From Candidatus Poribacteria bacterium (GTDB taxonomy: Bacteria > Poribacteria > WGA-4E > WGA-3G): 39,865 nt of DNA. The notes beneath the pieces were generated by a model. The model ran no database searches and was not told the origin of the DNA. It was given only the letters and a program-made list of their open reading frames with translations. Below are positions 23,392 through 36,592 of the stretch, piece after piece. A program made the translations under genes and the position numbers. The stretch covers positions 1 through 39,865 of the forward strand of contig JAPOZO010000013.1 in NCBI GenBank assembly GCA_026706025.1, written 5' to 3'. The first letter of the stretch is position 1. Each line of letters begins with the position of its first letter.

Positions 23392-26300
23392 ATGGCGATG
23401 GATTCCCTGAAAAACATTGTTCAGCGCTGTCATCAACGGCATGAAAAGCCTCTTCGACAACGCAAGACAGTGGCAACACCGGCAATGTATACAAAGGATC
23501 ATCCGCGCCAGTACACAGTTTACTGTGCGCACCGCTACCCTGTCATGCTTCATGACCTGGAGCAAGCCGATATCTCAATCATGCCTATGGGACACGCCCC
23601 TTGGCATGATCGGGGCCCTGGAGATTTTAAGGGCAAGCGATTCTTGAAACGCCAAGGCATAACGGATTGGGGCATTAAACGATGGGATGCCTCGTGGGGT
23701 ATTCAACTGTATACAGGCGTTCCTTCGGAACGCAATGGGGCGCGATGGCACGATCTGCACTTCAAGTATGAGGTGATCTGTGCTGCACCAGAGGCCGTTG
23801 TCGCTTGTATTGAGGCACTCGTCAATATTGTTAACAACCCGCTTCTAACATTAGGAAAATCCGGTGGACTCCGCTTCTCCTGTAGAGTCCAGGATTATCT
23901 CCACCCGAATACCGAAGCAGCGAAGTTGTATATCTATAAAGACACTCCGACACCAGAAAATACGTACCAACGCGACGTGTATCTTGAAATATTTGGCGAA
24001 AAAGGGCACACACGCTGGGATGCACGCTATGAGATTCTGATTGGTGACCTATTAGCCCCACCGGTCGTTGCCAAAGAAGTCCTATTCGCGCCTATTGATG
24101 CCCTCCGTGCGAAACTTCATGACCCTGCCCCTGATGACACAGAAGCGAAACAGATTGTCAGCCGTGTGCCGCTATCGCTCGGTTCAGAGCACCTTGATCT
24201 TGCCAGAGAGGCGTTCTTGCGGTGTGGATTTTCTTATGTCCGACAAGAAGATGGTCTTTACTACTGGACGCAACCTGAAAGCGATGTTGGCAGTGAAGAC
24301 GCATTACTATCAGAAAGAGATGGTGTCGTATGGGTCCGCGCATTTACACCTGACATAGGGCTGCCGACGCAATCTACGCCAATCACAGATGTTTGGGACG
24401 ATACAGGTATTCCGTCCCCGATAGATGCTACAAGCACCCCTACCCCCGTGAAAGTGAAGCAGGTACGCGAAGATGAACTCAGCCCGCTGGCGATCAAACG
24501 TCCCCCGCCGGTATTAGGACAACATGATAACACCGAAAACGATGAAATACTCCAAAGGGATGTGTTTCAGATAGAAAGCATTTTCGACCGCGGCGTACGT
24601 ATTCTTGGCGTTATTACAGGGACAGGTCCATGGGACAAACAGTCAGAAGACTCGTATTTCCTCAGTGGCGGCGTAATTTCCGTCAATACGCCGGAGGCTA
24701 AATTCGCAGAAAGCGCGGAAAAATACTTTCGAGAGCAGAATATGCCATCGGTGGTTTACTGGAAACCTCGAACACACCTCTGGCAAGAAGTAAAAGATAT
24801 CCCTATTGAGGCGCGTATAAAAACACCCTTTCAACGCGGAAATGTCTGTGAAGACTCAGAACGGTGCACCGCGCTTGAGGAAAAGGGCGGGAACCCCAAT
24901 GAAAGTATCTGTCCACAGTGCCCCGTCTATGCCGAATGTCAGCAGCGTGGATACTTATCCCAATTTGCTGCATTACAACAAGCAAAAGTACAAATGTTAA
25001 CGATCCCGCAACTGTTTTTTGATCCCCAATATACCGAATTGGTAGAACAGATTCTCAAACCAGAAGGTGAAACCGAACGACTTTGTGTTCTCAACCAAGA
25101 GCGCACACATAAGTTATTCCTCGAATGTAAACTCTCAAAAAACACTATGGAGGAATGGGCTACTCACTGGCAGGGTTGTGCCTTAGGGAACTTCGCCAAA
25201 ACATTGCTGAGTGCTTTGGAAATTAAGGGCAAACTTTACGGCGATGCCGTCAAAGGTGTGCGCGCGGTGATGCAGACCTTTGAGTGGCAAGAGGAAACAC
25301 TTATCCAGCAGATGTGTCAAGTTAGAGTGCGTGGCAGAGCAGTAGCACATCGGATCGTTGACGCTGATACCGGAAAACCATTGGCACGCTTTAGCATCGA
25401 GTTTGAAGGTGGTGCCTCCGCCTACATCCCCTTAGACAGTAACGCCGCAGACAAACTCAGGGCAAAAGGACTCAGCGTCTTTCCGCAATCTGTTCCACTT
25501 AATGAAGACCTGAAAGTTGTGATGCCGATGACGCAAGCGATTGCGTTAGGTATTTTGGATACGGAAACTGTAGAAAGCATTCAAGCGTTTCCAACCGTCT
25601 GTCGGGAGCAAAACTGGACATTTTGGCACCAACTCAAGCGTTTCTTCGCGCATTACACGCGAGACACAGATGCACCGATCCGCTGGGATGGTGAAGTTCT
25701 GCGGTTTTGGGTGCCACCTGTGCTCCACGCAAGCGTCAAACGTCTTTTGTTGGTATCCTCCGTATTCTCAGAGCAACATCTTCACAGAGTGTTCCCCGAT
25801 GAAAACCTTGAGTCCTACTGGACTGACCCCATACCATGGAGTCCAGGGAACCGAGTTTTTCAGATACGCACAGGCGTCTACCCATCAGAAACCATCCTCG
25901 ACTACCACAACTGGAGTAATGTAGGTGTCTCCGAAACAGGACGACGTTTTCTTCGCGGGATCCACGCCGAACTTGAGGCGGATTTGGACGTTAAACACGG
26001 AATTGTAACCAATAAAGATATTGCCAGACGCTTGGACGACATCGCAAAGAAAAGGAACGTCTCCTTCGTAGATGATTTCGAAAAGATGAGCATGTCAGAC
26101 ACGCTTTCTGAAGCAGCAGATGTCGTTTGGGTCGTTGGAACACCGCGACGACCGACGATGGCTATTTGGCAGCGCGCCCAGATGTTATTTGGGAACGATG
26201 AAAAACCGCTCTCTTACGAAGACGAAATAGAGTCGGGAACCTACAAAGACCTACGGCTCCAAAGTATTTACGAAGAAGAGGCTGTTTATGCCCTCACAGA

Positions 26301-26790
26301 GGTTATTGTGCAGGCTGAGTTGGATCGATTGACGGATAGACGGATTGTGTTGATTACCGGATTGCCACTTCCGAACATTACCGATAGACCTGAAACTTCC
26401 ATCTTTGACTGGGAAGATTTTGAGATTGCCGGTGGATTAGATAAACTCCCTGAGGCGATAGCGATACGCGAACGCTTTGAACAGGAGCGTGAGAATCTAA
26501 CGGCTGAGTCCAGTCGCGAAGAAGTTCAACGGGTCTTAGGTTGCTCCGAAAGACAGGCGAACCGCGTGTTGCAAAGACTTAGAGGCGGGAATATCCCACG
26601 TGTCCCTTTCCGTCAGCAAATTCTTTCCCTTCTTACTGATGGCGAGAAAAAAACAGCCGAACTGACTTCAGCCATTGACGGACATCCAGAGGCAATACAA
26701 CATGAACTCACCCGTCTTGTGGAGACTGGGGAGATTGTCAGGATTCGCCGAGGTGTATATGCCTTACCGGTTAAAGATGGCAAACGATAA
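23392..26790 (+). CDS. Large protein of unknown function resembling a degenerate Fe-S helicase/replication protein
   Basis: Not recognised with confidence. The 1132-residue protein has no signal or TM segment. Around residues 486-516 there are five Cys in the pattern C-x5-C-x14-C-x2-C-x5-C (C486, C492, C507, C510, C516), ending CPQCPVYAECQQRGYLSQ, like an iron-sulfur or zinc cluster of helicase-related mobile-element proteins. Upstream, GVITGTGPWDKQSED (near 406) sits where a Walker A should be but lacks GKT. Downstream LCVLNQERT (near 564) sits where a DExx box would be, but reads NQER. The region 909-1010 (VVWVVGTPRRP, LFGNDEKPLSYEDE, RLQSIYEEEAV, ITDRPET) has the feel of a helicase C-terminal half without the QxxGRxxR finger. 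Two winged-helix-like segments end the protein (about 1040-1125). It is therefore possibly an inactive helicase relative with DNA-binding ends. The N-terminal third, with KSGGLRFSCRV and LEIFGEKGHTRWDARYEI, could be primase-like, but this is weak. Confidence 0.4.
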   Translation: MAMDSLKNIVQRCHQRHEKPLRQRKTVATPAMYTKDHPRQYTVYCAHRYPVMLHDLEQADISIMPMGHAPWHDRGPGDFKGKRFLKRQGITDWGIKRWDASWGIQLYTGVPSERNGARWHDLHFKYEVICAAPEAVVACIEALVNIVNNPLLTLGKSGGLRFSCRVQDYLHPNTEAAKLYIYKDTPTPENTYQRDVYLEIFGEKGHTRWDARYEILIGDLLAPPVVAKEVLFAPIDALRAKLHDPAPDDTEAKQIVSRVPLSLGSEHLDLAREAFLRCGFSYVRQEDGLYYWTQPESDVGSEDALLSERDGVVWVRAFTPDIGLPTQSTPITDVWDDTGIPSPIDATSTPTPVKVKQVREDELSPLAIKRPPPVLGQHDNTENDEILQRDVFQIESIFDRGVRILGVITGTGPWDKQSEDSYFLSGGVISVNTPEAKFAESAEKYFREQNMPSVVYWKPRTHLWQEVKDIPIEARIKTPFQRGNVCEDSERCTALEEKGGNPNESICPQCPVYAECQQRGYLSQFAALQQAKVQMLTIPQLFFDPQYTELVEQILKPEGETERLCVLNQERTHKLFLECKLSKNTMEEWATHWQGCALGNFAKTLLSALEIKGKLYGDAVKGVRAVMQTFEWQEETLIQQMCQVRVRGRAVAHRIVDADTGKPLARFSIEFEGGASAYIPLDSNAADKLRAKGLSVFPQSVPLNEDLKVVMPMTQAIALGILDTETVESIQAFPTVCREQNWTFWHQLKRFFAHYTRDTDAPIRWDGEVLRFWVPPVLHASVKRLLLVSSVFSEQHLHRVFPDENLESYWTDPIPWSPGNRVFQIRTGVYPSETILDYHNWSNVGVSETGRRFLRGIHAELEADLDVKHGIVTNKDIARRLDDIAKKRNVSFVDDFEKMSMSDTLSEAADVVWVVGTPRRPTMAIWQRAQMLFGNDEKPLSYEDEIESGTYKDLRLQSIYEEEAVYALTEVIVQAELDRLTDRRIVLITGLPLPNITDRPETSIFDWEDFEIAGGLDKLPEAIAIRERFEQERENLTAESSREEVQRVLGCSERQANRVLQRLRGGNIPRVPFRQQILSLLTDGEKKTAELTSAIDGHPEAIQHELTRLVETGEIVRIRRGVYALPVKDGKR

Positions 26791-27050: not shown

Positions 27051-27073
27051 TGCATAAAAATGCATTTTATGCA
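27051..27073. promoter_or_regulatory. Perfect inverted repeat overlapping the ECF -35 element
   Basis: TGCATAAAA-ATGCA-TTTTATGCA (27051-27073): 9-bp arms with a 5-nt centre. It overlaps the first bases of the GCAACC -35-like element at 27071. This could be an operator for the sigma-fusion gene. Confidence 0.55.
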
Positions 27074-27101
27074 ACCTTTCCTCCCTTAAAATACGACATA
27101 A
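27071..27101 (+). promoter_or_regulatory. Candidate ECF-type promoter of the sigma-fusion gene
   Basis: GCAACCTTT (-35-like, 27071-27079) and CGACATAA (-10-like, 27094-27101). The same pair recurs at 38373-38401 ahead of the third permease. AAC-rich -35 and CGAC/CGTC -10 are common for ECF sigma factors, so autoregulation is likely. The spacer here is 17 nt from GCAACC to CGAC, against 15 nt at the second site. Confidence 0.5.
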
Positions 27102-27170: not shown

Positions 27171-30137
27171 ATGAAAAACGAAGATGTTGACCTGATTCAT
27201 CGCATCTTGGCAGGTGATGAGGCTGCGTTCACGACTCTGGTGGAAAGGCACCGGAAGTGGATTCATTCACTCGCATGGCGTGAGATTGGTGATTTCCACG
27301 CGGCACAAGAAATCACACAAGACACCTTCATTCAAGCTCTTAAATCGCTGCCTACCTTGAGGGATCCCAACCGTTTTTTGGGATGGCTATATGTGATAGC
27401 AAAGCGTCAGTGCATTGAGTGGCTGCGGCGAAAGCCGATTACGATGCAGTCCTTAGATACAATGCCTAAAGCTGAGTTAGAAACGGTATCCTATACGAAA
27501 TATCTTGACGAAAAACAGACGCAAGCGTCAGCAGATGGGTTACGTGAAGTTGTAGAACGCCTCCTCCGAAAGCTGCCAGAATCTGAACGTTCTGTGATGG
27601 TCCTGCACTATTTCAACGGCTTAACCTGTGAAGAAGTGAGTGAGCGTTTGGATGTATCTTTGAACACAGTAAAAAGTCGGCTATATCGGGCGCGGAAGCG
27701 ACTGGAGCAGGAGGAGTCGATGCTGCGAGAAAACTTGGGTCCAAATTTATTTAAAAATGAACCGCGATACATTAGTATCCAAGCGAACGCGACAACAGAA
27801 AGCGGAGAACACTTGGCAGAAGGCGGTTTTGAACTCACGCAAACTGATAAGGTTTTCACGTCTACCGGCTCCCGCACGATGGGGCTCCATGGCGACTACC
27901 CACTGCCAATGTATATGTTGCTGCACTATATTATCCACCCTAATGCGATAGATCTCTTTAAATTTCCTTTGGGTATTGGGAATCGTTGGGAGCCGGAGGG
28001 TCCTCATAAATCTAAAGCAATGATAACTTTGGAAGCGCATGAAACAGTCAAGGTCTCAGCAGGAACCTTTCCATCGTGCCTGAAGCATATAACTGTGTTC
28101 ACAGACGCTGACGTAGAAGAACCCGACGCTGAAGAGGGAAACGCATACCTAAACGGCACGCGCTATCTGTGGTTCGCTAAAGGCGTTGGACTCGTGAAGA
28201 TGCGTTATGAGCATTCTAATGGTGTCATTACAGAAGCAGAATTACTTGAATATGAAACACCCCTTGCGGATGAAGAATATTTCCCATCCCAAATAGGCAC
28301 GCAGTGGACATACAAATGGCACAACGATTATAACGACGCGGCGATTATTGAAAGTTGGCACGTCACCAGGAATTTTAGTCACCCCAAAAATCTTGATAAC
28401 CCCTTGGCACTTGCCTCGGCGAGATATGAGGTGAAAATAAGTGACGATGAACCGCGGGTCGCACATGTCAAGTGTGTCCTAACACCAAAAGCAGATAGGG
28501 GTCCGAAAGGGGACCGAAAGTCGTTGCTCTTGTCCATGACTCGTTTTGGAACAGAATGGTTGTACGATGGATATGCCCGGTATCTTCAAGATTTAACGGT
28601 TACCGATGTAAACGGTGAAACATTACTAATAGAGGAAATTGGTAAAACACAATGGGTTGTCGAGGTAGAAAGCACATCACCTTTAACCCTGCAATACAAA
28701 GTGTTAATAAATCACGATGAGCGGGATTGGCCCTTTGGGCGGAATGAGGCACCATACGTCCAAGAGGATTGCATTTTCTTGCCGGGATATGCGCTGTTTA
28801 TCGTCGGTGAAGTCAAGGATCTTCAACTAAAAGTCGACGTGCCGGATAACTGGCATGTCTCAACACCTTGGGAGCAGATTGCGTCGGATGAACATCATTT
28901 CGTATGTGAGGATCAGGACGACCTGATGTTCGCGTATCTCGTGCTTGGTGAATACAGTAAACGTGTGGCAAAATTGGGAGAGGCAGAGGTCGTGATTGCA
29001 ACCGGCGGACGTTTTAAAGCATCTATTGATGAGGTCCAACCTACCATCGAGTCCCTCCTGCACGGGTATTCAGATGTATTTGATGCTACCCCAACAGGTA
29101 AGATACTTTTTGTTGCCAACCCGTATGGCGAAAAAGGATATCCCGGTGGTGGGGCATCTGGACGCAGCATCAGCGTGCACGTCGGCGGCGAGTTAGATAA
29201 AGCGAGCAGACGTTTTTGGTTACCGCTTGTCGGATACATGGTTTCCTCTCTCTGGGTTGGGACTCAGGCTATCAATTTTAGAGGACAAGAATATTGGTTT
29301 AGCGCGGGTTTCACGGGATATTATTCAGATATTGTCTCTGTCCGCCTTGGATTTACTTCTGAAAGCGATTTTCTCAGAAGTTTTGAACGCGGGTGGGAAT
29401 CGTATCTATCTCGACAGGGTGAACTTTCTATTCGCGAGGCAGGGGAAGACAAATCCGCCAACCGAGAACTTGTCTATGACGGCGGCAGTTTAATCGCTGC
29501 GGCTTTGGACTTGCAAATTCGCACACTTACACAAAACCGAAGCAGCTTGGACGATGTGATGAAGCAGATGTATCGGGAATTCGGTCTTACCGACGTTACC
29601 TATACGATAAACGATGTCATCAGGATCGTTAGTCAGATTGCAGGTAAAGATTTTAAACCCTTCTTCAGCAAATATGTGCAAAGGACAGAGCGACTGCCAT
29701 TAGAGCAATATCTTAAAGCGGCAGGTATGAATACCGAGATAGCCTTTGGCGAGAGACTTCCGAGTCTCAATTATATCCTTTTTGAGATGCTTCAAATCAA
29801 ATCGCTTGGCGGTCCAACAGGACGAGGTATGTTCATCCATCATTCATCACAGTATCAGGATGACGACGAATTGATAGGCATCAACGGCACACCGGTGAAA
29901 ACATTTGACGACATCAGAGAGGTTGCCAAAGATTGGAAATCCGGTGATGCCGTAGCCTTAACCCTTAAAAGGGAAGGCAAAGAAATTATCCTGCCCATCA
30001 CACTATCAGGTGACACCTCGAAAAAACCACCACTGGAACCAGGACCCCTTGATGTTACTATCACGAAAAATATGGATAGCACAGACCTACAACGCGCCAT
30101 CTGGTCGAGTATTGTGGGCGATAAAGGAGGAAATTGA
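27171..30137 (+). CDS. ECF sigma factor fused to DUF3108-like domains, a degenerate M61-type peptidase and PDZ
   Basis: The 988-residue protein starts at ATG 27171 with TGGAGG 5 nt upstream. Residues 1-190 are an ECF sigma factor: region 2 (EITQDTFIQALKSLPTLRD, RFLGWLYVIAKRQCIEWLRR) and region 4 (LPESERSVMVLHYFNGLTCEEVSERLDVSLNTVKSRLYRARKRL). Next come one or two DUF3108-like domains (VSAGTFPSCLKH, RYLWFAKGVGLVKMRYEH), then a peptidase M61-like region and a C-terminal PDZ domain (GTPVKTFDDIREV). The zinc motif is lost: residues 689-693 read YMVSS where the neighbour has HEICH, and AGFTGY (A712) replaces EGFTEY. No signal or TM segment is seen, so the whole chain appears cytoplasmic. The stop overlaps the next gene's start. 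It probably regulates the cluster and uses the former peptidase as a ligand- or peptide-sensing domain. Confidence 0.85.
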   Translation: MKNEDVDLIHRILAGDEAAFTTLVERHRKWIHSLAWREIGDFHAAQEITQDTFIQALKSLPTLRDPNRFLGWLYVIAKRQCIEWLRRKPITMQSLDTMPKAELETVSYTKYLDEKQTQASADGLREVVERLLRKLPESERSVMVLHYFNGLTCEEVSERLDVSLNTVKSRLYRARKRLEQEESMLRENLGPNLFKNEPRYISIQANATTESGEHLAEGGFELTQTDKVFTSTGSRTMGLHGDYPLPMYMLLHYIIHPNAIDLFKFPLGIGNRWEPEGPHKSKAMITLEAHETVKVSAGTFPSCLKHITVFTDADVEEPDAEEGNAYLNGTRYLWFAKGVGLVKMRYEHSNGVITEAELLEYETPLADEEYFPSQIGTQWTYKWHNDYNDAAIIESWHVTRNFSHPKNLDNPLALASARYEVKISDDEPRVAHVKCVLTPKADRGPKGDRKSLLLSMTRFGTEWLYDGYARYLQDLTVTDVNGETLLIEEIGKTQWVVEVESTSPLTLQYKVLINHDERDWPFGRNEAPYVQEDCIFLPGYALFIVGEVKDLQLKVDVPDNWHVSTPWEQIASDEHHFVCEDQDDLMFAYLVLGEYSKRVAKLGEAEVVIATGGRFKASIDEVQPTIESLLHGYSDVFDATPTGKILFVANPYGEKGYPGGGASGRSISVHVGGELDKASRRFWLPLVGYMVSSLWVGTQAINFRGQEYWFSAGFTGYYSDIVSVRLGFTSESDFLRSFERGWESYLSRQGELSIREAGEDKSANRELVYDGGSLIAAALDLQIRTLTQNRSSLDDVMKQMYREFGLTDVTYTINDVIRIVSQIAGKDFKPFFSKYVQRTERLPLEQYLKAAGMNTEIAFGERLPSLNYILFEMLQIKSLGGPTGRGMFIHHSSQYQDDDELIGINGTPVKTFDDIREVAKDWKSGDAVALTLKREGKEIILPITLSGDTSKKPPLEPGPLDVTITKNMDSTDLQRAIWSSIVGDKGGN

Positions 30138-32536
30138 TGAAAAAAACAGATAAATCCGAACGCAACATTGTTTTAAGTGCCAGTGCTGCTACAGAAAGCG
30201 GGAATCATTTGGCAGAAGGGAATTTCACCCTTAAGAAGACCGATAGGGCTTTGACATCCATCGACTACGGTACAGCAGGACACGGTAGTGGTGATCCATC
30301 GCCGAGGTATATGTTGCTATACTACATGAGCCACTATGAAATCGACCTCTTCAAATTTCCGCTGGATATCGGGCAAACTTGGAAAGAAAAAGGGCACTGG
30401 CGTATGCAGACGAAAAGTAGTTTGGAGGGTTATGAACCTGTAGAAGTCTCAGCAGGCACGTTCTCGAACTGCCTAAAGCATAAAACTTTCTTCACTGACG
30501 CTGATGTACAGGATACGAAGGCTGAGCTGCGAAACGCGCTTTTGAACGGCACCCGTTATCTATGGTTTGCCGAGGGTGTTGGCCTTGTTAAATTGAGATA
30601 TGAACATTCCAACGGGGTCGTTACAGAAGCCGAATTGCTTGAATACAAGATTCCTGTTGAAGACCAAGAATACCTCCCTTTGCAAATTGGCAATGTATGG
30701 ACCTATAAATGGCAAAACGATTATCGGGACGAGGCTGCCATTGAAGAGTGGCGCGTCATCCGAAATTTTAGTGAACCTGAGAATCTTGATACTCCGATGG
30801 AACTTGCATCGGCGAGATATGAGGTTAAAATAGATGCCAATGAACGGCGCGTGGCAAATGTTGCGTGTGTACTAACGCCGAAGACAGACAATCGTGCTAA
30901 AACGGGCCGAAAGCCGTTGCTCTTATCTATGAGCCACTTTGGTACTGATGGTATGTACGATGGATATGGTAGGTATCTCCGAGATCTAACGGCTACCGGG
31001 TCTAAGGGAAAAAAGATACCAGTCACAGAGATTGGAAAAACGCAATGGATGGTTGAAGTCGAGAATGATTTACCTGTGACGTTGCGTTACAAAGTGTTGC
31101 TGAATCATGATGAACGGGAGTGGGCATTCGGTAGGGATGAAGCACCGTACGTTCAAGAAGACTGTATGTTCTGTCCCGGATATGCGCTGTTTATCGTCGG
31201 TGAAGTGGTGGATATTGAACTGCGTGTTGATGTTCCAGATGACTGGCACGTCTCGACCCCTTGGAATCGTATTGGAAACGAAAGGTATCGTTTTGCTATA
31301 ACAGACCAAAACGATTTGATGTATGCGTATCTTGTGCTTGGAAAGCATTCCGAGAGAATGGCGGAATCTGAAGGGACAGAGGTGCTGCTCGCTTTGGGTG
31401 GACACTTCAAAGCATCTATGGATGAAGTTCAAAGAACAGTTAAATCACTTCTGCATACATATTCGGGAATTTTCGGCGGTACCCCAAAGGATCGTATGTT
31501 GTTTGTGGCGAATCCTTGTGATATATACAGCGGGGGCGGCGTATCTGGTCGCAGCATCAGCGTTCTGATGGACGGAACATTAGATACAGGCAACAGACAA
31601 TCATGGACACCGCTCGTAGCACATGAAATTTGCCATATCTGGAATGGAAAAGCTATCAATTTTAGTGAACAGGAATACTGGTTTAGCGAAGGGTTCACCG
31701 AGTACGCTTCAAAAATTAGCTGCGTGCGTCTTAGCGTAATTTCTGAAGAGGAGTTTCTCAAGGACCTTGAACGCAAGTGCGAATTGTATCTGTCTAAACA
31801 GGGTGAACTCTCTATCCGAGAGGCAGGCGAAAACAAGATGCCGAACAGAGGACTTGTCTATGACGGTGGAAGCCTAATTGCTGCTGCTTTGGACTTGCAA
31901 ATCCGCAAGCACACACAAAACCGGAACAGTTTAGACGATGTAATGAAGCAGATGTATCGGGAATTTGGACTCACCAGAAATGAATACACAATGAATGATG
32001 TCATCAGAATTGTCAGCCAAATTGCAGATGAAGATCTTGAATTGTTCTTCAAAAAGTATGTTTCAGGAACGGAACGTTTGCCGCTGGCGGAATATTTCAC
32101 GAATGCGGGTATCGATGTCGAGATAGCATTTGGCGAAAAACTTCCGAGCCTTGGATACATTCTTTTTCAGATGCTTCAAATCAAGTCAATCGGTGGTTCA
32201 ACAGGAGGGGGCATGTTCATCCACCAATCCCCGCAGTATCAGGATGATGACAACTTGATAGGCATCAACGGCACACCGGTGAAATTTTTTGATGACATCA
32301 GAAAAGTTGCCAAAGATTGGAAACCTGGTGATGTCGTTGAGCTAACCGTTGAACGAGAGGGTGAAAATGTCACCCTACCTATCACATTAGGGGGAGATCC
32401 ATCTGAAAATCCGCCATTGGAACCGGGGCCTATTGACGTTACCATCACGAAAAAAACGGATAGCACGGAGCCGCAACGCGCCATCTGGTCGGGAATGTTA
32501 GGCAAAGGAAACTGTTCTCAAGTTGAAACACTATAG
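30137..32536 (+). CDS. M61-type zinc aminopeptidase-like protein with DUF3108-like and PDZ domains (intact paralog)
   Basis: The 799-residue protein is a tandem paralog of residues 190-988 of the preceding gene, but without the sigma part. Its start ATG overlaps the preceding TGA (TGATG), with AAAGGAGG 6 nt upstream, so translation is coupled. The DUF3108-like region is at about 10-290 (VSAGTFSNCLKH, RYLWFAEGVGLVKLRYEH). The M61-like peptidase has intact HEICH (H496, E497, H500) with W502 in HIWN, and Glu 518 in EGFTEY as third zinc ligand. A PDZ domain follows (IGINGTPVKFFDDI). M61 glycyl aminopeptidases cleave N-terminal Gly. There is no signal peptide, so it may act in the cytoplasm. The nucleotide identity to the upstream copy is high across the 3' half, indicating recent duplication. 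Confidence 0.8.
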   Translation: MKKTDKSERNIVLSASAATESGNHLAEGNFTLKKTDRALTSIDYGTAGHGSGDPSPRYMLLYYMSHYEIDLFKFPLDIGQTWKEKGHWRMQTKSSLEGYEPVEVSAGTFSNCLKHKTFFTDADVQDTKAELRNALLNGTRYLWFAEGVGLVKLRYEHSNGVVTEAELLEYKIPVEDQEYLPLQIGNVWTYKWQNDYRDEAAIEEWRVIRNFSEPENLDTPMELASARYEVKIDANERRVANVACVLTPKTDNRAKTGRKPLLLSMSHFGTDGMYDGYGRYLRDLTATGSKGKKIPVTEIGKTQWMVEVENDLPVTLRYKVLLNHDEREWAFGRDEAPYVQEDCMFCPGYALFIVGEVVDIELRVDVPDDWHVSTPWNRIGNERYRFAITDQNDLMYAYLVLGKHSERMAESEGTEVLLALGGHFKASMDEVQRTVKSLLHTYSGIFGGTPKDRMLFVANPCDIYSGGGVSGRSISVLMDGTLDTGNRQSWTPLVAHEICHIWNGKAINFSEQEYWFSEGFTEYASKISCVRLSVISEEEFLKDLERKCELYLSKQGELSIREAGENKMPNRGLVYDGGSLIAAALDLQIRKHTQNRNSLDDVMKQMYREFGLTRNEYTMNDVIRIVSQIADEDLELFFKKYVSGTERLPLAEYFTNAGIDVEIAFGEKLPSLGYILFQMLQIKSIGGSTGGGMFIHQSPQYQDDDNLIGINGTPVKFFDDIRKVAKDWKPGDVVELTVEREGENVTLPITLGGDPSENPPLEPGPIDVTITKKTDSTEPQRAIWSGMLGKGNCSQVETL

Positions 32537-32639: not shown

Positions 32640-34127
32640 ATGTTACGAACACTTATCCGCCAAGAGCTTCTAACACATCTGATGAGTGCGCGTTTTTTTG
32701 CTGCCGTTGTCATTACGCTTCTACTCGTTGTCGCCAATTCTGTCGTGCTTCTTGAAGATTACGAACGTCGATTGGCGAAATACAGCCAGCAGGAAAATGG
32801 CCATCGTGAGAAGGCACAGGAAGCGAAAACCTACTCAACTTTAAAACTATCTGTTGAACGTCCACCGAACCCCTTAAGTCTTTTTAGCGCCGGATTGGAT
32901 AAGCGGCTTGGCACCACTTTTGACATTTACCACGGTTTCGTCCCAATGATTTCGGATGGCTCGGCGCGAAGTCTTGATAACACATTTCTTAACCTCTTTT
33001 CAAAGATCGATCTCGTCCTCATTTTTCAAGTCGTTTTGAGTTTGATGGCACTGCTTTTCGCTTACGACGCAATCGCAGGAGACTGGGAAAGTGGCACCTT
33101 ACGCCTGATTATTTCCCATCCAGTGAGGCGTGGATCCATTCTACTTGCGAAATATATTGGAGCAATGATCTGTCTGCTGCTCCCCGTGCTAATGAGTCTG
33201 CTGATGGTCCTGATTTTGTTAGCCACTGCCGACGCAATCCAATTGGATGGAGAAGATTTTCTTCGGATCGGCGGGATAATTCTGACAACAACCATCTACT
33301 TGTCTGCTTTTTATCTCATTGGACTGTTGATTTCTACAACTACACGCCGCACTGCCACATCCCTGATGCTCTGTATGTTTCTGTGGGTAGTTTTGGTACT
33401 CATCTATCCAAACTGGAGTCGGTTTACCATTACCCCCGTTGGTGATACACGCGCACTACACTCATCAGCAGATCAACAGGTTGAACAGATTTGGGAAGAG
33501 GTTGACAGAGAAGAAAGCCGGTTTTTAGCGAACAGTCCACTTGAAGGTGAACCTCAAAAATTTAATCTGGATGTTCCGTCAAGTAATAGTTTCTCGTCAG
33601 GGAGGCACTTCAGCAAACGGTATGGAATGGATATGACACTGGGAAAACGCTCAGAACCGTTAGTGCCTCACGTTCAAAAGTATCATGCCACTATGGGTGC
33701 GTTGTACCTCCGTTCTGCGGAACAAATCGGTTTAGTCCGAAAACAGACTTTGGATAGCACCTCCCTCCGAGAATCAATATGGCATGAACGTCTCATGAAA
33801 CTCAGTCCTGCAAGCCTCTATACGTTTGCTACCTCTGCTTGGGCCGGCACTGATCTGGACGGCATGTTTGATTTTGTTCAAGCCGTTCAAGGTTACCGGC
33901 GTACCATCGTTGACTATTTCCACGATAAAGATGCGTTCGGCAGTCGGCAATGGTTCGCCTCTGACAGAGGTGCAGTAGACTGGTGGGATTTGCCACAGTT
34001 CCGTTTTACGCCGACGGGTGCTTGGGAAAACGCAACACGCGCACTGCCAGAATTATTTTTACTCTTACTCATCAACTTGGTTCTCTTCACAGGGAGCTTC
34101 CTGATTTTCACTAAAATCGAAGTTTAA
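32640..34127 (+). CDS. ABC-2 type transporter permease 1
   Basis: The 495-residue membrane protein has an N-terminal TM (about 19-38), a long extracytoplasmic loop to about 120, then TMs including IDLVLIFQVVLSLMALLF. The conserved cytoplasmic coupling motif FAYDAIAGDWESGTLRLIISHPVRRGSILLAKY follows, then further TMs, a second large loop (about 270-455) and a last TM. This layout matches the ABC2_membrane/GldF-like permeases with large periplasmic domains. It is followed after 12 nt by permease 2, which shares the motif. The start has AAGGAAG 8 nt ahead. No ATPase is encoded in the window. Confidence 0.88.
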   Translation: MLRTLIRQELLTHLMSARFFAAVVITLLLVVANSVVLLEDYERRLAKYSQQENGHREKAQEAKTYSTLKLSVERPPNPLSLFSAGLDKRLGTTFDIYHGFVPMISDGSARSLDNTFLNLFSKIDLVLIFQVVLSLMALLFAYDAIAGDWESGTLRLIISHPVRRGSILLAKYIGAMICLLLPVLMSLLMVLILLATADAIQLDGEDFLRIGGIILTTTIYLSAFYLIGLLISTTTRRTATSLMLCMFLWVVLVLIYPNWSRFTITPVGDTRALHSSADQQVEQIWEEVDREESRFLANSPLEGEPQKFNLDVPSSNSFSSGRHFSKRYGMDMTLGKRSEPLVPHVQKYHATMGALYLRSAEQIGLVRKQTLDSTSLRESIWHERLMKLSPASLYTFATSAWAGTDLDGMFDFVQAVQGYRRTIVDYFHDKDAFGSRQWFASDRGAVDWWDLPQFRFTPTGAWENATRALPELFLLLLINLVLFTGSFLIFTKIEV

Positions 34128-34139
34128 AGGGGAATCCCA

Positions 34140-35666
34140 ATGATCTGGCATATCATCAAACGAGAACTCTTTGACCACATCAATAGCCTGCGCTTTATTC
34201 TAACGGTTGTGATACTTTCCGCCTTAATGGTTACCAACGCTGTAGTGCATCTTCGGACGCACCCCAAAAGGGTCCGTAACTATTCCGAGAAGGTTACCAA
34301 ATCCGCTAACGAGTTGAAATCCCGAACAGGGTTGTATGCTCTGGCGCGGAAGGGACCCGGTGACCTCAACAAACGTCCCTCTTCGCTCTCCTTTATCGCA
34401 GACGGCGGGGATGCCTATTTGCCAAAAAACATATCAAACGGGGAGACTTGGTCCAAAAGCGGTCAAGGGGGTGAGGTCAAAAGCAACTGGTGGTTGAATT
34501 ACGGCACCGTGAACCCGGATGCGACAGATCTTCGTCCCTATGCAATAAAGATAGATTGGGTATTTATTATCACTTACCTGCTCTCGTTCATTCCGCTCCT
34601 CTTCACGTTTGATGCACTCTCTGGCGAGCGAGAACAAGGGACCTTGCGATTGTGTCTCGCGAATCCGATTTCGCGTCCCATCCTATTAATCGGTAAATTC
34701 TTGGGGACCTTAATAACCGTCCTCATTCCTTTCATTTTTGCAGTGCTGCTGAATTTGGCAGTGATTTCCGTCGATAGTTGGACACAACTGAGTGCAGACA
34801 ACTGGGGACGTTTAGGGTTGATCCTGTTGATTGCTGCCTGCTATGCGGGTATCTTCGTTGGATTGGGATTGATGGTTTCTGCTGGCACGCGAGAGCCTCG
34901 GGTGAGCCTTGTTGTGCTCTTATTGATTTGGGTAGCCGCTGTGATTTTTATGCCATCCACCCTCGGCACCCTTTCCACAAAATGGATGCCACCCGTTCAA
35001 ACAATGGATCAATTTCGTGATACAAGAAAAGCAGCCCTTAAGCAGATTAGTGACGACTATAGTGCCCGAATGCGTGCTATTAAAGAAAAAAAGAACCCGA
35101 ACCTCCCAAGTCTAAGTGAACTTCAGCAACTTTATGAAACGTCACCTGAAGCTGCCATGGCCGCAGCAGAAAAGTTAAGAGGAGCCTGGGAAACGGAAGG
35201 TGATGAAGAATTGGCACTCAAGGCTGAACTCATTAAGGGAGATGTAGAAACCCGAGAACGCCTTAATCGCGAGCGTTTGGATGCACAAGTCGCGCAGGTG
35301 CAGCGCGCAAGGGCGGTAACCCGGCTTTCACCGGCAGCGATTGTCCAATACGCGCTTGAATCAATGGCAGGCACCGGTTTTAATCGGCACTTGCAATACT
35401 TAGAACATGTGCATCAGCACACAAAACAATTCCGACAATTCATCATCGAAACCGATAGAGCAGACATCCAAAGTCGTCACCTCATCGGCATCCCCAAGGG
35501 CATGTCTCAGAAACCAGTTTCGAGTGAGGCAATTCCGCAATTTGAGGATAAGATCGCCTTTAGCGATACCTTCAACACCGCAACTTTGGACCTGCTGTTA
35601 CTCGTGTTACTACTCGGCGTATTTATTTCAGGGGCATTCCTTGTCTTTATACGTTCAGAGGTATGA
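34140..35666 (+). CDS. ABC-2 type transporter permease 2
   Basis: Paralog of permease 1 with 508 residues: N-terminal TM (about 16-34), a loop of about 100 residues, then TM and the coupling segment FTFDALSGEREQGTLRLCLANPISRPILLIGKF, several TMs, a charged coiled region (about 290-400) and a C-terminal TM (LLLLVLLLGVFISGAFLVFI). The region between, with many Glu/Lys/Ala residues, may be helical and extend into the periplasm. It likely forms a heterodimer with permease 1. The start follows AAAGGGGAA at about 6 nt. Confidence 0.87.
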   Translation: MIWHIIKRELFDHINSLRFILTVVILSALMVTNAVVHLRTHPKRVRNYSEKVTKSANELKSRTGLYALARKGPGDLNKRPSSLSFIADGGDAYLPKNISNGETWSKSGQGGEVKSNWWLNYGTVNPDATDLRPYAIKIDWVFIITYLLSFIPLLFTFDALSGEREQGTLRLCLANPISRPILLIGKFLGTLITVLIPFIFAVLLNLAVISVDSWTQLSADNWGRLGLILLIAACYAGIFVGLGLMVSAGTREPRVSLVVLLLIWVAAVIFMPSTLGTLSTKWMPPVQTMDQFRDTRKAALKQISDDYSARMRAIKEKKNPNLPSLSELQQLYETSPEAAMAAAEKLRGAWETEGDEELALKAELIKGDVETRERLNRERLDAQVAQVQRARAVTRLSPAAIVQYALESMAGTGFNRHLQYLEHVHQHTKQFRQFIIETDRADIQSRHLIGIPKGMSQKPVSSEAIPQFEDKIAFSDTFNTATLDLLLLVLLLGVFISGAFLVFIRSEV

Positions 35667-35728
35667 ACACCCATAATCACCGATGGGCATTAACGGCTCG
35701 TCACCAAACAAAAGGAGAAATAACTATA

Positions 35729-36592
35729 ATGTTGAAAAGATTTCGCACCTTTTTTACGCTTTTACTCGTCTTTGGGCTCAGTGCAATGCTTATGGGCGAC
35801 GCATCGGAAATTACCCAATATTTTCCAAAAACACTCGGAAGTTACTGGGTTTACGAAGACCCAGATGGAAACGAATTAACGCGGCGTGTCGTTGAGGACA
35901 AAGAGATTGCCGGGGAAATGTATCACGCCTTCAGTTATGAACCCGTGTTGGAGAATCCGGCAGATTATGACTATCATATCCATCCAAATTTCTACCAGGT
36001 TGGTGAAGAAAGGGTTACGTTCCTGCTCGGGGATGAGGTAGAGAAAGCTGTCAAAGCACACCTTACTGAAGAGATGAAGGCTTTTCAAAAAATATTGGAG
36101 AAAATGGGAGCACCGTTTATTATGCTCTATAATATTGAGATAGAGGCACAAGACCCGTTTTATGCGCTGCCAATACCTGTCACGCCCAACGAAAAGTGGA
36201 AGGCAACACAGATAAAAGCCAAAATCACGATGCAACCTGTCCCGCCACAAGACCCTCCAAAAGCCACAATCGAATTCACTATTGTCGAAACAGGAACTGT
36301 TGTGAGCACAGAAAACGTTGAGACACCCGCTGGCACTTTTAAAGACTGTTTGAAGATTGAATACCGAACAGAAACAGAGATGGAAGTATCCGCAGCGGAA
36401 TTTGGATCAGAAACGCCCGGCGAATCCCTTACAACGCTGTGGGTGGCACCCAACATCGGGATTGTCAAGTTTCATCAAAAAGCTGAGGATATTTTTCTCA
36501 AAACTACCCCTATGCCTCCTGGTTTTGAGGCACCATCTCCAGTCAGACCCCCTGAGTTAAACCTTGAATTAAAGAGGTATGAAGTCAAGTGA
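35729..36592 (+). CDS. Secreted DUF3108-like protein 1
   Basis: 287 residues with a signal peptide (MLKRFRTFFTLLLVFGLSAMLMGDA). The mature part has the pattern YFPKTLGSYWVYEDPDGNEL, HIHPNFYQVGEERVTFLLGDE, then ETPAGTFKDCLKIEYRTE and TTLWVAPNIGIVKFHQ. The GTF-x-DCLKI and LWxAxxxGIVK motifs are those of the DUF3108-like (TapB-type) domains in the two upstream proteins, so the domain is shared across the cluster. ATG 35729 is chosen over an in-frame ATG at 35663, because it gives a clear signal peptide and has AAAGGAG 11 nt ahead. Function is unknown; a periplasmic or extracellular ligand-binding role is possible. Confidence 0.82.
   Translation: MLKRFRTFFTLLLVFGLSAMLMGDASEITQYFPKTLGSYWVYEDPDGNELTRRVVEDKEIAGEMYHAFSYEPVLENPADYDYHIHPNFYQVGEERVTFLLGDEVEKAVKAHLTEEMKAFQKILEKMGAPFIMLYNIEIEAQDPFYALPIPVTPNEKWKATQIKAKITMQPVPPQDPPKATIEFTIVETGTVVSTENVETPAGTFKDCLKIEYRTETEMEVSAAEFGSETPGESLTTLWVAPNIGIVKFHQKAEDIFLKTTPMPPGFEAPSPVRPPELNLELKRYEVK

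Follow-up and report, generated by a model that had tools for sequence, protein, structure and literature searches.

The few C-terminal extensions of ECF sigma factors that have been studied either bind ligands or are inhibitory (PMC8103513, PMC8999054), and a review names only three groups with such extensions that have been investigated experimentally (PMC8103513); signal sensing by one-protein ECF sigma factors is thus still largely an open question. ECF41 (SnoaL-like), ECF42 (TPR) and CorE-like proteins combine a sigma factor and a C-terminal regulatory domain in one polypeptide, as does P0001, the protein described here, and no separate anti-sigma gene is seen near any of them; their extensions, however, are small (SnoaL, TPR or metal-binding), and none described in the two reviews is a dead peptidase beside a live paralog (PMC8103513, PMC8999054). 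A second layout, with a membrane helix between the sigma factor and an extracytoplasmic domain, is represented by IutY (ECF243), SCO4117 (ECF52) and ECF48/53, with regulated proteolysis shown for IutY and proposed for SCO4117 (PMC8999054); the wider Poribacteria family around P0001 has this layout, but P0001 lacks the helix, and the extensions in Poribacteria vary far more and often resemble enzymes. Expanded ECF sets with long C-terminal repeat domains have been described for ECF57 and Gemmataceae/Tuwongella (PMC8999054, PMC8567305), and several Poribacteria fusions carry WD40-like or propeller-like sequences reminiscent of the ECF57 WD40 fusions; the latter belong to another phylum, however, and no dead/live enzyme pairing was found there (PMC8999054, PMC8567305).

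Outside the sigma factors, the MocR/PdxR/GabR regulators are comparable with P0001 in that a DNA-binding domain is fused to an enzyme-fold sensor, although they join a helix-turn-helix to a PLP-enzyme fold where P0001 joins a sigma factor to a dead peptidase (PMC4944035). In the pseudoprotease germinant sensor CspC a dead protease senses a signal for an active relative (PMC4619724), but, unlike P0001, CspC is not fused to a transcription factor. One-protein ECF sigma factors with extensions, dead-protease sensors and enzyme-fold regulators are therefore already known; the literature searched gave us no example of a sigma factor joined to a dead peptidase that has a live paralog (a listing in the main ECF reclassification is possible), and no report of repeated enzyme-to-sensor conversion.

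Candidatus Poribacteria are uncultured, sponge-associated bacteria, a phylum known almost entirely through metagenomes. The window, by which we mean the whole stretch of DNA analysed, is the complete contig C13 (39,865 bases) of a 6.27-Mb assembly placed in this group, the relatives found by sequence being nearly all metagenome-assembled Poribacteria genomes, and its features are collected in Table 1. P0001 has the two-region make-up of an ECF sigma factor, matching Sigma70_r2 (E 3e-15) and Sigma70_r4_2 (E 3e-17) in Pfam as well as TIGR02937 (E 1e-27), with no region 3 family matched in Pfam. A preliminary description of this DNA had assigned sigma, DUF3108-like, M61-like and PDZ domains to the protein; Pfam confirms the sigma and M61 N-terminal domains, while the PDZ and DUF3108 labels rest on sub-threshold matches (PDZ profile scores of 18.4 and 20.5 bits, both below the curated cutoff of 27) and are plausible, strands being present at both regions in the predicted structures of both proteins. 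The Peptidase_M61 match of P0001 falls just below its cutoff (21.2 against 22 bits, Pfam).

Table 1. Features of the sigma-m61x locus, in window coordinates.
Feature	Position	Strand	Basis or remark
Predicted ECF-type autoregulatory promoter, TGCAACCTTTCCTCCCTTAAAATACGACATA	27070..27100	+	Conserved in 23/24 genomes, flanks not
P0001 (sigma-m61x), ECF sigma factor fused to catalytically dead M61-like protein	27171..30137	+	Single ORF, 988 aa, ATG at 27171
P0001 ECF sigma domain, region 2 aa 23-88, region 4 aa 126-178	27171..27734	+	Pfam, TIGR02937
P0001 DUF3108-like beta-rich region, aa 199-362	27765..28256	+	Sub-cutoff Pfam match aa 287-347; beta-rich in model
P0001 M61 N-terminal domain, aa 418-586	28422..28928	+	PF17899 (Peptidase_M61_N) E 2.6e-12
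P0001 erased HExxH, YMVSS, Y689 to S693	29235..29249	+	HExxH lost in 28/28 clade members
P0001 third zinc ligand, Glu replaced by Ala712	29304..29306	+	Ala in 26/28 clade members, Glu in 2
P0001 PDZ-like region, aa 897-941	29859..29993	+	PF13180 18.4 bits, cutoff 27
GGAGG ribosome-binding site and overlapping TGATG joining P0001 to P0002	30126..30139	+	Sequence
P0002, M61-like paralog without sigma, zinc site intact, without signal peptide	30137..32536	+	799 aa, ATG 30137
P0002 intact HEICH, aa 496-500	31622..31636	+	Sequence
P0002 intact third ligand Glu518, within EGFTEY	31688..31690	+	Sequence
ABC-2 permease with DUF3526 region	32640..34127	+	PF12679 E 1e-29, PF12040 E 3e-8; family F1, downstream of fusion in many genomes
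Second ABC-2 permease with DUF3526 region	34140..35666	+	PF12679 E 5e-30, PF12040 E 2e-8
DUF3108-like protein, N-terminal hydrophobic stretch, probably exported	35663..36592	+	PF21347 E 1e-9; family F2, conserved downstream

The M61 zinc site, an HExxH motif plus a third-ligand Glu, is complete in P0002 and absent from P0001; the replaced residues of P0001 and the intact motifs of P0002 are exactly as first described. The earlier claim that the second gene encodes the same protein without the sigma factor, started on an overlapping TGATG, is likewise borne out: the two proteins are 65% identical over 785 aa, and the TGA of P0001 and the ATG of P0002 have one base, 30137, in common. No membrane helix lies between sigma factor and extension in P0001 or its 23 full-length orthologs, whose hydropathy maximum is 0.2-0.9 as against about 1.7-2.6 in tethered family members, and no anti-sigma domain family (ZAS/ASD) is among the Pfam matches of the extension at E<1.

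AlphaFold models of P0001 and P0002 (mean pLDDT 72.3 and 80.9) both find M61 peptidases as their best PDB matches in Foldseek (4fgm, 8j9c, 7xyo); for P0001 the fold assignment comes from 4fgm (E 5e-25) together with PF17899 (E 3e-12). These M61 glycyl aminopeptidases share their fold with both proteins, and their HExxH and third Glu with P0002; they have zinc ligands that P0001 is without, and the GGxEH-type motif of 4fgm is absent from P0001 and P0002, which have GGxSGRS instead. The dead half of P0001 is a maintained pseudo-peptidase that is probably folded. The sigma part of the P0001 model has low pLDDT.

M61 homologs were gathered from 36 genomes of the same genus; a further 24 genomes, belonging to other genera of the order or class, gave no match at E<1e-20. 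The cytosolic fusion is present in 28 copies, 24 with the sigma factor in the same ORF and four without it, these mostly cut by contig ends. All 28 form one clade (UFBoot 100, aLRT 99), and its sister consists of 14 live cytosolic partners, sigma-less, signal-less and all intact (100/98); outside both clades are mostly live M61 copies with a signal peptide or membrane helix, plus four signal-less live copies. The HExxH motif is lost in 28 of the 28 fusion-clade members, and by parsimony a single loss of the zinc site, on the stem leading to the cytosolic sigma fusions, accounts for this. The preliminary description held that homologs in which the fused peptidase keeps HExxH would weaken its reading: the cytosolic clade contains none, but two sigma-TM-M61 fusions with a membrane helix do keep it, one in this genome (C56:59479-62790, with an intact HEIFH) and one, likewise HEIFH, in genome G015. 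Fusion alone therefore does not force death of the enzyme, and the idea that a sigma-M61 fusion is always dead was rejected on these two cases.

Nei-Gojobori estimates of dN/dS across pairs are about 0.13-0.23 for the dead catalytic domain, as against about 0.15-0.26 for the live one, and about 0.07-0.19 for the sigma domain; these ratios indicate purifying selection on the dead domain, as on its live paralog. Compared with P0001, the copies in genomes G003 and G025 have diverged more at synonymous sites of the sigma part than at those of the extension, but since the divergence profile is gradual and has no clear breakpoint, we make no claim of sigma-domain swapping.

Fusion and live gene overlap or adjoin in all 14 genomes that have both. 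The cytosolic live copy is nonetheless absent beside 14 of the 28 fusions, and a whole-genome search showed that 10 genomes, the single-contig G021 among them, have the dead fusion without any close live M61. Because the partner is missing beside half of the fusions, the sensor cannot depend on it, and an obligatory dead/live pair was rejected on the same count. The tree points to the live partner being probably ancestral and later lost in one subclade.

Alignment of the regions upstream of the 24 orthologs reveals one sharply conserved block, TGCAACCTT-N-TTAAAATACGACATA or near variants, in 23 of the 24. It has the form of an ECF promoter, with an AAC-type -35 and a CGAC -10, and its consensus is TGCAACCTT-N-AAANNNCGAC(A/T)TA; with its AAC-containing -35, this predicted promoter, TGCAACCTT...CGACATA, stands ahead of the fusion's own operon in the same 23 genomes. 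The pattern TGCAACC-N14/18-CGAC(A/T)TA has a single match in the 6.27-Mb genome, at 27070-27100. Nine of ten fusion-bearing relatives gave 16 matches to the strict pattern, all within the homologous locus; the tenth, G021, escaped only through a spacer one base too short for the pattern. In four relatives lacking the fusion the strict pattern had no match, and the reversed control pattern had none either. In relatives, further predicted sites stand ahead of genes for live M61 proteins whose N-terminal segment is hydrophobic, for LamG proteins, for a large hydrolase-like protein that is exported, for an ABC-2 permease and for a second sigma fusion. Given this conservation and locus restriction, the simplest reading is that P0001 is probably a sigma factor that controls its own gene, its regulon being limited to the locus.

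In the window the genes of Table 1 are followed by those for a dienelactone hydrolase and a further DUF3108-like protein. Many genomes likewise have permeases and DUF3108-like proteins downstream of the fusion, and permease pairs also follow other sigma fusions of this genome, on contigs C15, C35, C3 and C52. No exporter ATPase was found within the operon; several relatives have a nearby gene in the opposite orientation that resembles an ABC ATP-binding protein. Upstream, at 23392-26790, the window encodes a 1132-aa protein with an AbiEi_4-type C-terminus, members of whose family lie upstream of the fusion in six examined loci.

On balance we consider it fairly likely that P0001 is a cytosolic one-protein gene switch, in which an ECF sigma factor is joined to a dead-peptidase sensor while the live P0002 processes the same kind of ligand. 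The N-terminal part would function as an ECF sigma factor and act on the promoter directly ahead of its own gene; in relatives it would also act on the promoters of adjacent operons within the locus. The C-terminus would descend from an active M61-type peptidase, its fold kept, with neither helix nor zinc site and hence unable to hold zinc in the manner of M61 enzymes; it is most likely regulatory, and the peptide or protein ligand that it would bind would release the sigma part or block it. P0002 is the live version in that compartment, probably translated from one transcript with P0001 and probably acting on ligands of the same kind; the dead copy would then sense what the live copy, where present, consumes. 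The peptide- or substrate-sensing switch proposed in the preliminary description is partly supported: it gains from the fixed erased site, selection, fold, promoter and recurrence, and loses in that the active neighbour is not essential and two fusions keep HExxH. Where an enzyme has a dead and a live copy, the substrate of the live one predicts what kind of ligand the dead one would bind, and the predicted promoter provides a ready-made reporter.

The main rival, which we regard as unlikely, takes the dead domain for a protein-protein module that pairs with P0002, as an active/inactive heterodimer, or with the permeases, the contact holding the sigma factor inactive. The overlap or adjacency of the genes in 14 genomes speaks for it, as do the conserved downstream permeases and the 65% identity of P0001 and P0002, which could allow hetero-oligomers, and WD40-type ECF57 extensions have been proposed to act by protein contact (PMC8999054); yet P0002 is not conserved wherever the fusion is, the 10 genomes with a dead fusion and no close live M61 being the clearest cases. 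It is improbable, in our estimate, that the C-terminus is instead a fused inhibitory domain removed by proteolysis, as in IutY or ECF52, with the loss of enzyme function incidental: although the wider family is membrane-tethered (40 linker/TM matches), which would fit regulated proteolysis, P0001 and its 23 full-length orthologs have no such helix, and a mere inhibitory tail need not retain a whole M61 fold under purifying selection.

The view of the dead half as a relic of gene fusion in the course of decay is largely refuted and highly implausible. Its catalytic residues are lost, and the copy in G022, with a stop inside the match, is possibly broken, but the reading frames are intact in 24 genomes and dN/dS is near 0.2, and a decaying pseudogene was rejected on these grounds. 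An assembly or sequencing error joining two genes near 27.7 kb, which the preliminary description had named as a threat to its reading, has practically no probability left: nothing was found in its favour, and it is refuted because 24 genomes carry this fusion as one ORF, in many independent assemblies of which some are a single contig.

This genome has about 55 ECF-sigma fusions in all, P0001 among them. Their standard layout is a sigma factor, a linker of the FQ-PNLTENIMRE type, one membrane helix near residue 220-245 and then a variable domain (WD40-like, propeller-like sequences, M16, transglutaminase and others); the helix is absent from the S9, AhpC/TSA and Bmp-type sigma fusions, and P0001 is a further family member without it. 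The linker-helix segment matched 40 times in this genome, 2-63 times in each congener and 0-3 times in other genera of the order; the ten further genomes tested from the class gave no match.

The 15 sigma-TM-M16 fusions with a visible motif read HL(V/I)N(Y/H), HLVSS or QLITH, and all have lost the Glu of HxxEH. The 16 stand-alone M16 paralogs, mostly signal-peptide-bearing and mostly adjacent, read HLIEH, and the two sets separate in the M16 tree (98/99). In sigma-S9 fusions the nucleophile Ser is replaced by Gly (GYGSGG) in 11 of 11, the stand-alone paralogs having G-x-S-x-GG. Sigma-fused thioredoxin-like proteins with a visible motif have lost the first Cys of CxxC in all 12 cases, and stand-alone ones nearly all have WCxxC, with one exception (WSRPS, in a 906-aa frame open at its start). 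Dead and live copies have the same predicted compartment for M61, M16 and S9, but seemingly not for the thioredoxin-like proteins. Since each family represents one event or a few, the losses that count as independent number about four, as against at least two intact-looking fusions (sigma-TM-M61 and sigma-TM-transglutaminase); with two sigma-TM-M61 proteins keeping the zinc site and a sigma-TM-transglutaminase apparently keeping its triad, a dead sensor is no universal rule of the family.

Together, these results suggest that the conversion of an enzyme to a probable sensor recurs with three unrelated folds, a so far undescribed way of building gene switches, and there is a fair chance that such recurrent conversion is a new principle. 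More tentatively, it is possible that Poribacteria repeatedly duplicate an enzyme, fuse one copy to an ECF sigma factor and erase its site while the live copy stays free; the M61, M16, S9 and thioredoxin-like fusions would then be independent products of one rule, pseudoenzyme-sigma sensors that read the substrate level of the live enzyme. If the four-fold recurrence holds, enzyme-to-sensor conversion would be a general and testable route by which transcription regulators originate.

Several individual loci of this genome deserve mention. At C31:100818-104389 a stand-alone HLIEH M16 gene with a signal peptide is followed by a sigma-TM-M16 gene with HLVNY, a split that is genus-wide. The sigma-S9 fusion at C35:35638-38451 is without helix and carries GYGSGG; in G005 and G006 a live stand-alone paralog lies about 3 kb off. 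A sigma factor is fused at C15:2139-4058 to an AhpC/TSA-like domain in which both Cys are lost (WNDFG), with two ABC-2/DUF3526 permeases directly following. About ten ECF-sigma fusions with different C-terminal domains occupy about 45 kb at C56:33500-78000, which resembles a domain-shuffling array; among the genes in this interval is the sigma-TM-transglutaminase fusion (C56:65682-68033), whose Cys-His-Asp triad appears intact. A short sigma-DUF3108-like fusion of 419 aa (C52:113236-114495), with a permease 49 bases downstream, is widespread in the genus; a single TGA or TAA often stands in frame within its homolog matches and may be no more than the end of the gene. At C54:20879-22441 a sigma factor is fused directly, without helix, to a Bmp/PnrA-type binding protein, a possible nucleoside-sensing sigma factor.
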